Assembly: GCF_000512735.1 (NCBI RefSeq)
Contig: NZ_CP007028.1
Coordinates: 992,001-1,056,000 of the forward strand
Origin: Thermocrinis ruber
GTDB lineage: Bacteria > Aquificota > Aquificia > Aquificales > Aquificaceae
Reading direction: 5' to 3'
DNA length: 64,000 bases
Shown here piece by piece: positions 4,871-6,769 of the stretch; within the stretch, counting starts at the first letter, position 1; every line of letters begins with the position of its first letter. The notes beneath the pieces were generated by a model. It saw only the letters and a program-made list of their open reading frames with translations. It was not told where the DNA came from and did not search any database. The position numbers were made by a program, and so were the translations under genes.

Positions 4871-5592
4871 TCGTTATTCCATCAAGGCTTGGCTCTTCAA
4901 GACTTAAGGAAAAGCCACTGCAGGTTATAAAGGGAAAACCGCTTATAAGGTGGGTGGTGGAAGGCTGTTTGAGAACTGGGGAGGATGTTATCCTTGCGGT
5001 GGATAGTGAAAAGATTGCAGAGGTGGTAAAGGACCTACCCGTTAAGGTAGTTTTCACTCCATCGGACATACCCTCCGGGAGCGACCGGGTTGCCCATGTG
5101 GTTAAAGACCTGGACGTGGATTTTGTTATAAACTACCAGGGGGATGAGCCCTTTGTCTATAAAGAAGATGTTCAAAGGCTATTTTTAGCCCTTGAAGAGA
5201 GCCCCGTGGCGACTTTGGCAGTTAGGGACCCGGACGCCTACAGGGACACATCCTCCGTGAAGGTGGTTCTGGACAAAGACCAATACGCCCTCTACTTTTC
5301 AAGGAGCCCTATTCCCTACCTAAAGCAGGAGGACAGCTTTTATCCTCTCAAGCATGTGGGCATATACGCCTTCAGAAAGGATGTTTTGATGGATTTTGTG
5401 CGCTGGCAACCTTCCCATTTGGAAAGGCTTGAGTCCCTTGAACAGCTCCGCCTCTTGGAGAATGGAATAAAGATAAAGGTCCTCCTCAGCCAAAATTACT
5501 ATCACGGTGTAGATACAGAGGAGGACCTAAAGCTTGTGGAAGAAAAGCTCACTTTTTACCTTTCACGTACTGCTCCCAATTCTCCGGAGTGA
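4858..5592 (+). CDS. kdsB: 3-deoxy-manno-octulosonate cytidylyltransferase
   Basis: A 244-residue CMP-KDO synthetase that activates KDO with CTP for lipid A/LPS assembly in the cytoplasm, marking a diderm with LPS-type outer membrane. Family signatures are [15 protein letters not shown] at the N-terminus, the D/P-S-G-S-DR segment ([15 protein letters not shown]), NYQGDEPF and the [10 protein letters not shown] stretch. The final 44 nt overlap the convergent iscS-like gene. Start ATG 4858 fits the family N-terminus. Confidence 0.96.
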
Positions 5593-6769
5593 AAGGAGAG
5601 AGTTCCCTTAAGAGCTTTACTGTCTTGGGAAACTCCTCCGCCACATAATCTACGTCCTCTTCTGTGTTGTCCCTTCCAAAGCTAAAGACCAGGGAACCGT
5701 TGGCAACCTCTTTGGGAACTCCTATGGCAAAGAGCACGTGGGACTGCTTAAGCGCCAAAGATACGCACGCGGAACCGGAGGCGGTTTCCACTCCCATTAG
5801 GTCTAACCTTAAAAGCATTGCCTCTCCCTCTATGAGATGAACGATCAGGGAAAGGTGATGGGGCAGTCTTTGGGTGGGATGTCCTGTGAATTCTATGTAA
5901 TCAAGCTTCTCTTCAATGGCTTTTTTGAGCTTGTCTCTGTAGTAAGAGAGCCTTGTCATTCTGTCCTCAAGCTCCTTCATGGCTAACTCTGCCGCTGCAC
6001 CAAAGCCCACAATGCCCGGCACATTCTCGGTGCCAGCCCGGACTCCCCTCTCTTGGGTGCCACCCTCTATCAGAGGTCTGACCTTTACACCCTTCCTAGT
6101 CCATAGGGCACCCACACCCTTTGGTCCATACATGAGATGGGCAGTAAAGGACGCCGCATCCACGCCCCAGTCCTGCAGGTCCACCGGGTAATGTCCCAAG
6201 GTAGGACATGCATCCGTATGGAATATTACCTTAGGGTTCTTTTCCTTTGCAGCCTTTACAAGCTCCTTTATGTTCTGGATGGTGCCGATCTCTCTGTTGG
6301 AGTGTCCTATGCTAACTAAAACCGTGTCGTTTCTTACTGCTTCCCTCACCTGGTCTGGATGGATGAGCCCATACTTATCCGGCTTTAGATAAGTTACCTC
6401 CCATCCTTCCCTTTCCAAGGTCTTCAGTGGGTGAAGGACGGAGTGGTGCTCTATCTCGGTGGAGACTATGTGCCTTCCCTTCTTTTCGTATGCCTTGGCT
6501 ATGCCCTTTATTGCCAAGTTGTTGGCTTCTATACCACCAGAGGTAAAGATGATCTCCTCTGGGGAGTTTGCATTTATAAGTTGGGCGACCTTTTCCCTTG
6601 CGTTATTTATAGCCTTTTTGGCAACTTGCCCAAAGCTGTGCAAAGAGGTAGGATTGCCAAAGTGTTCCCTAAAGTAGGGTAGCATTGCTTCTATAACCTC
6701 TTGGGCTACGGGCGTTGTGGCTATATGGTCCAAATAAACAACCCTTTTGCCAAGCTTTTTTATAAACAT
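5549..6769 (-). CDS. IscS/NifS-like protein lacking the PLP lysine
   Basis: A 406-residue class V aminotransferase-fold protein that aligns over its length with cysteine desulfurase IscS. Kept: [10 protein letters not shown], His in EIEHHSV, the Asp of FHTDAC, the active-site loop Cys in SGSACVS (Cys335). Changed: the lysine that forms the PLP Schiff base in S-x-x-HK is Leu212 ([11 protein letters not shown]), the Gln after the PLP-contacting Asp is Pro (DACP), the Thr of the SGATE phosphate loop is Ile (SGGIEANN), and the Arg in SIRFSLGR is Val (SLVFSFGR). Desulfurase activity is therefore unlikely. A strong AGGAGG ends 6 nt before ATG 6769, inside the end of mrp (3 nt gap), so mrp and this gene form a two-gene Fe-S operon. 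Confidence 0.9.

Follow-up and report, generated by a model that had tools for sequence, protein, structure and literature searches.

Within the window analysed here, a stretch of 64,000 nucleotides from the genome of Thermocrinis ruber, we identified a member of the IscS/NifS family, referred to as IscS*, from which the PLP Schiff-base lysine and the equivalents of E. coli Asn155, Gln183, Thr76 and Arg354 are all absent. Judged by its sequence, IscS* is no cysteine desulfurase by the features that define this enzyme. We propose that it is quite probably a catalytically dead IscS which has nevertheless remained a working partner of IscU, with sulfur being supplied in inorganic form. Textbook accounts make cysteine desulfurase (EC 2.8.1.7) the universal gateway of sulfur into ISC-type Fe-S assembly.

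The iscS* reading frame starts with ATG and has no internal stop codon. The protein matches the Pfam family Aminotran_5 (PF00266) over its full length (E=8.8e-83), indicating the aminotransferase class V fold, and exceeds the cut-off of the subfamily model NF002806 (322.9 vs 304), whereas it stays below those of the NCBIfam NifS model (481.7 bits, cut-off 530.75) and IscS model (395.9 bits, cut-off 643.2). Alignment with E. coli IscS yields the residue pairs listed in Table 1, and in addition H108/H104, D186/D180 and H211/H205, these three histidine and aspartate positions being retained together with Cys335, which lies on the mobile loop, within the GSAC of an ASGSACVS motif. E. coli IscS needs Lys206, Gln183 and Cys328 for activity, and its Arg354 holds the substrate carboxylate (PMC9978102). 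Since the residues for PLP and substrate are replaced, the native cysteine desulfurase reaction is very unlikely for IscS*. The initial annotation of this DNA had described a lost PLP site with a kept catalytic cysteine, and this is borne out: its sequence motifs were all found in the translation, and the leucine codon at the Schiff-base position lies where it had been placed (6136-6134, minus strand). One further loss had been overlooked, namely Arg159 (in SNREIG). The 3' end of iscS* overlaps that of a convergent kdsB-like gene (4858-5592, plus strand) by 44 bases (5549-5592), an overlap that recurs in close Thermocrinis relatives.

Table 1. Positions of iscS*, its diagnostic codons and related genes (window coordinates, except where a locus handle beginning with L is given)
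Feature	Position	Strand	Description
iscS*	5549..6769	-	406 aa IscS/NifS-family protein without PLP Schiff-base lysine
Ile80 codon	6530..6532	-	corresponds to E. coli Thr76
Arg159 codon	6293..6295	-	corresponds to E. coli Asn155; R in 72/72 Aquificota orthologues
Pro189 codon	6203..6205	-	corresponds to E. coli Gln183, which hydrogen-bonds PLP O3'
Leu212 codon	6134..6136	-	corresponds to E. coli Lys206, the Schiff-base lysine for PLP
Cys335 codon	5765..5767	-	at the position of the catalytic/persulfide E. coli Cys328; invariant
Val361 codon	5687..5689	-	corresponds to E. coli Arg354, which holds the substrate carboxylate
C-terminal LRELSPF segment of iscS*	5549..5620	-	matches the IscU-binding segment of E. 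coli IscS
mrp	6773..7861	-	mrp/ApbC-type Fe-S carrier P-loop ATPase (NUBPL/ParA); Pfam PF10609, 9e-104
Degenerate NifS-like protein	L121:3647-4837, L086:3647-4765, L123:3683-4747, L124:1678-2781; L085:2157-3350	-, -, -, -; +	

Homologues of iscS* were matched in 101 of 136 Aquificota genomes. Residues were counted over 72 distinct full-length orthologues from this phylum, among which I80, R159, V361, H108, D186, H211, R244 and C335 are invariant, as are 150 positions in total. Leu212 and Pro189, two substitutions that the initial annotation had singled out, are conserved only in part: position 212 is Leu in 52 and Tyr in the other 20 sequences, position 189 is Pro in 57 and Ala in 15. The residue at 212 follows the family, being Leu in the Aquificaceae (assigned by named relatives; Phe in one partial sequence) and Tyr in a second family presumably including Persephonella and Sulfurihydrogenibium, which we take to be the Hydrogenothermaceae. 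The reading frame is open in every intact orthologue inspected, and pairwise dN/dS, where dS is unsaturated, amounts to 0.01-0.08, i.e. purifying selection. Based on the invariant residues and these dN/dS values, the lost PLP site represents a conserved state, and mere degeneration of the gene is ruled out.

The orthologue of Aquifex aeolicus is already CRYSTALLISED (PDB 9WFY). This entry represents the wild-type protein, is identical at 405 of 405 positions to the orthologue of our genome G001 (presumably A. aeolicus VF5, its near relatives being labelled Aquifex) and 86% identical to T. ruber IscS*, from which it deviates by species differences only; L212, R159, P189, I80 and V361 are the same and Cys335 is kept. 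In six further entries (9WFE, 9WFB, 9WF8, 9WEW, 9WER and 9WEP) PLP-site residues are restored stepwise, according to our sequence alignments by R159N and L212K, then V361R, P189Q, I80T and I16A, and finally G155M, A188V and T209S. All seven carry the PDB name "cysteine desulfurase", and a paper describing them was not found in the openly accessible literature. As the PLP site is being rebuilt in these variants, its loss must have been known to the depositors; the lysine-free IscS* of the Aquificota is hence not unnoticed.

The complete T. ruber genome (one contig of 1,521,037 bases, 100% complete) was searched for a desulfurase by protein query, PF00266 and TIGR01979. A canonical IscS or SufS elsewhere in the genome, which the initial annotation had left to be looked for, is absent: iscS* is the sole match to the IscS/SufS query, and the other PF00266-like matches are weaker and fail the desulfurase query, the strongest of them being a different class V aminotransferase-family protein. 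A hidden canonical desulfurase is thereby ruled out for T. ruber. Among 31 Aquificaceae assemblies of at least 98% completeness, 27 have lysine-free homologues only; G001, G009 and G024 add a Lys-bearing homologue, and one assembly gave no match at all. A Lys-bearing paralogue is present in many genomes of the putative Hydrogenothermaceae, and no second match was found in G099, G101 and G104 of that family (99-100% complete).

As to scaffolds, IscU was detected in 98 of the 105 genomes of these two families, once in T. ruber, and in no genome of the other Aquificota families, f3-f5. The reverse holds for SufB (SUFBD_core), with 0/105 in the first two families, T. ruber included, vs 29/31 in f3-f5 (G105-G135). 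No Fe-S scaffold other than IscU was found in T. ruber, and SUF as a backup assembly system is ruled out there. SufS above the cut-off was seen in no Aquificota genome, and among f3-f5 only G126 has any SufS-like match. Because SufB occurs without IscU or a SufS over the cut-off, f3-f5 look like SufBC-only (SMS) users, as judged from SufB, whereas the Aquificaceae and Hydrogenothermaceae would use IscU with IscS*. The 27 of 31 Aquificaceae with lysine-free homologues only, taken together with SufB lacking SufS elsewhere, imply that most of this deep bacterial phylum apparently builds its clusters without sulfur derived from cysteine.

For binding to IscU, E. coli IscS uses its C-terminal helix together with helix 309-316, and it no longer binds once residues 374/376-404 are deleted (PMC2854127). 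In the alignment, an EGE(A/S) helix and an LR..SP tail are kept in IscS* (EGEA and LRELSP), in Archaeoglobus fulgidus IscS and in the lysine-free protein of the Margulisbacteria. Lys-bearing paralogues from the Aquificota are shorter at the C-terminus by about 15 residues (median; 16 vs 96 sequences), and the five that were aligned have neither the LR..SP tail nor EGE. From this distribution it follows that IscU docking and desulfurase function reside in different proteins of the Aquificota, or that the latter function is absent. Lys-bearing paralogues of the Aquifex type (L122:4001-5110, plus strand; L120:4010-5116, minus strand) adjoin fdhE and genes for iron-sulfur/cytochrome b subunit-like proteins; the adjacency to fdhE suggests a separate job of the Lys-bearing Aquificaceae paralogues in formate dehydrogenase maturation. 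Hydrogenobacter/Thermocrinis relatives moreover encode a second, more degenerate lysine-free NifS-like protein (with e.g. FDGPSLLGPQG and FAGHYFYAPHY; Table 1). Where its neighbours were read, the gene belongs to nif-like clusters, where it adjoins those for aldehyde ferredoxin oxidoreductase and a homocitrate-synthase-like protein and has a NifB-like gene close by.

Wherever the Aquificota loci offer enough room, iscS* almost always follows mrp, in both families (exception: G050/L074). The T. ruber mrp frame was listed with a TTG start, whereas the conserved start, shared with relatives, lies at the ATG of position 7801 (MAVKEIMD...), with which the MAVKDI beginning of the mrp product of one relative agrees. 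The Hydrogenothermaceae have the order mrp-iscS*-iscU-thiI/NFACT-like-tusA-(DUF1858)-nfu-aroE; mrp-iscS*-iscU was seen in 14 of 20 loci, with the thiI-like gene, tusA and nfu next in line wherever the available sequence extends far enough. The arrangement is split in the Aquificaceae, with mrp-iscS* apart from iscU-thiI-like-tusA-DUF1858-nfu-aroE, and 11 genomes of this family showed iscU-thiI-like-tusA. In T. ruber, the iscU cluster is located outside the window at about 1,086,060-1,089,100 of the contig, roughly 87 kb from iscS*. In the aligned IscU proteins, all three cysteines are retained, as is the Asp in CGD. Directly 3' of iscU, again in both families, lies a gene for a ThiI/tRNA_Me_trans-like protein with an NFACT-R_2 domain (e.g. 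L137:6519-7562, plus strand), which probably acts as a tRNA thiolase linked to the Fe-S/sulfide pathway. The T. ruber genome contains four TusA, two rhodanese and DsrE_2-like genes, including a directly adjoining pair of TusA and then DsrE_2 (contig positions 25554-26300), which is likely to form a sulfane-sulfur relay.

According to our proposal, the IscS* dimer would dock IscU and, while the [2Fe-2S] cluster is forming, Cys335 would serve as its transient ligand or as a sulfur acceptor. Sulfur would arrive in inorganic form, either as free sulfide or as sulfane sulfur on the TusA of the iscU operon, and not from cysteine, and completed clusters may then pass to carriers such as the Mrp and Nfu proteins encoded alongside. 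The joint loss of five PLP and substrate residues, with replacements that are fixed or nearly so, argues for a dead partner of this kind; the separation of iscU and iscS* into different operons in the Aquificaceae argues against it. In support of the proposal, H2S rescues E. coli lacking iscS but fails to do so when iscU is deleted (PMC13015791); on the other side, the need for a docking protein is in doubt since this bacterium grows on sulfide without any IscS. The scaffold or cluster-assembly platform suggested by the initial annotation agrees with the absence of another desulfurase, the single IscU, the lack of SUF, the shared operon in the sister family and the docking elements, and as a role it is predicted from sequence.

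A version of this proposal that we regard as possible, but doubtful, is a persulfide relay in reverse, in which TusA, charged by DsrE or rhodanese from S0, polysulfide or thiosulfate, passes sulfane sulfur to Cys335 of IscS* and from there to IscU, IscS* thus being a sulfurtransferase and more than a platform. Our best clue to the sulfur source comes from within the Margulisbacteria, which have a Lys-bearing IscS and, in some genomes, a lysine-free group as well. At equal flank length, tusA adjoins all six lysine-free iscS genes with room, but none of 24 Lys-bearing ones (Fisher ~2e-6, calculated by hand and uncorrected for relatedness, a value that overstates the evidence because the genes are related), and DsrE_2 lies beside one of the six. 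The position of tusA within the iscU operon of both Aquificota families, the four TusA, two rhodaneses and TusA-adjoining DsrE_2 of T. ruber and the invariance of Cys335 point in the same direction. On the other hand, TusA may feed the adjoining ThiI-like tRNA thiolase instead, and the direction of transfer is not readable from sequence; no ThiI-like gene was seen in the short flanks of the Margulisbacteria lysine-free iscS. That the IscU pathway is fed by TusA sulfane sulfur via Cys335, opposite to the IscS-to-TusA direction of E. coli, is accordingly put forward here as a rather unlikely, tentative idea. If true, sulfur chemolithotrophs would make their Fe-S clusters from the sulfur pool of energy metabolism, without cysteine or PLP.

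Improbable, in our estimate, is a PLP pocket rebuilt for another ligand, or as a regulatory or sensing site, with Arg159 as its new anchor. Invariance of Arg159, His108, Asp186, His211 and Arg244 in 72 orthologues goes beyond what a mere filler would need, but the same conservation would be expected if a salt bridge between Arg159 and Asp186 filled the cavity, and the lysine-less proteins of the Margulisbacteria and A. fulgidus have Asn at the position of Arg159.

Still less probable is that IscS* has remained a slow desulfurase, with PLP bound non-covalently or through another lysine. E. coli IscS K206A does retain PLP interactions and trace activity, yet mutation of Gln183 or Lys206 removes most activity (PMC9978102). 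His108, Asp186 and His211 are kept in IscS*, but the equivalents of Asn155, Gln183, Thr76 and Arg354 are gone as well, and exactly these residues were replaced by the depositors of 9WFE-9WEP, which makes sense if the wild type has no PLP site. The initial annotation had compared IscS* with A. fulgidus IscS as a PLP-lysine-deficient protein devoid of desulfurase activity; lysine loss and inactivity are documented (PMC7585200), but the structure 4EB5 is drawn with PLP (PMC9769115). Lysine loss alone is for this reason no proof of a PLP-free protein, and the additional residue losses make the case stronger for IscS*. As for a degenerating pseudogene or an assembly error, its probability is practically nil, as nothing but the lost catalytic residues favours it, against the open frames, the low dN/dS, the invariant positions and the identical PLP-site replacements of the crystallised A. 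aeolicus protein.

What IscS does for IscU besides supplying sulfur, and whether TusA-borne sulfur or free sulfide feeds ISC in vivo, become testable with IscS*, for which 9WFY and the restored variants provide a ready starting point. As a kind, the lysine-free IscS is already known from A. fulgidus; new are the phylum-wide pattern, the split of docking from catalysis and the link to TusA. The more thoroughly rebuilt pocket, the spread across the phylum and the TusA association of IscS* appear undescribed in the accessible literature.

Besides the A. aeolicus orthologue, the closest known systems include the IscS-IscU complex of A. fulgidus (4EB5/4EB7), whose inactive IscS provides a Cys ligand to the [2Fe-2S] cluster of IscU (PMC7585200; PMC9769115). 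Like IscS*, A. fulgidus IscS has lost the Schiff-base lysine (Asp instead), the substrate arginine (Leu) and the equivalent of Gln183 (Ala), and has kept the Cys loop and the IscU-docking elements. Unlike IscS*, it retains the equivalents of Asn155 and Thr76 and has Asn in place of His205; another A. fulgidus IscS entry, 4R5F, carries Lys at the Schiff-base site. By analogy IscS* probably works in the same way. Our tree, in which A. fulgidus is represented by the PDB sequence, places this IscS outside the bacterial lysine-free group and thus favours two separate lysine losses, in line with the convergence postulated in the initial annotation, although the AU test does not reject a single origin (p 0.168, or 0.542 when the pocket is masked). 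The Margulisbacteria lysine-free proteins (position 212 Leu or Gln, 211 usually Asn, 361 Val) join those of the Aquificota with 99/96 support when all columns are used; masking the pocket columns separated the two groups in a quick tree, although the joined tree scored higher, so that their common origin is not rejected, but not firmly shown either. For Methanosarcina acetivorans IscS1, which is paired with its own IscU1, absence of the catalytic Lys and of PLP-binding residues has likewise been reported (PMC7585200), but this protein is archaeal and coexists with two IscS paralogues that have the PLP residues, of which IscS2 was shown to be active. E. coli IscS shares with IscS* the fold family, the Cys loop and the IscU-docking helix and tail, and differs in having the PLP lysine and the four other PLP and substrate residues. 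Finally, Fe-S assembly without a cysteine desulfurase is a feature that the IscS*/IscU system would have in common with SMS, which in M. jannaschii uses sulfide (PMC12192291); there, however, the scaffold is SufBC instead of IscU, and no IscS homologue is involved.
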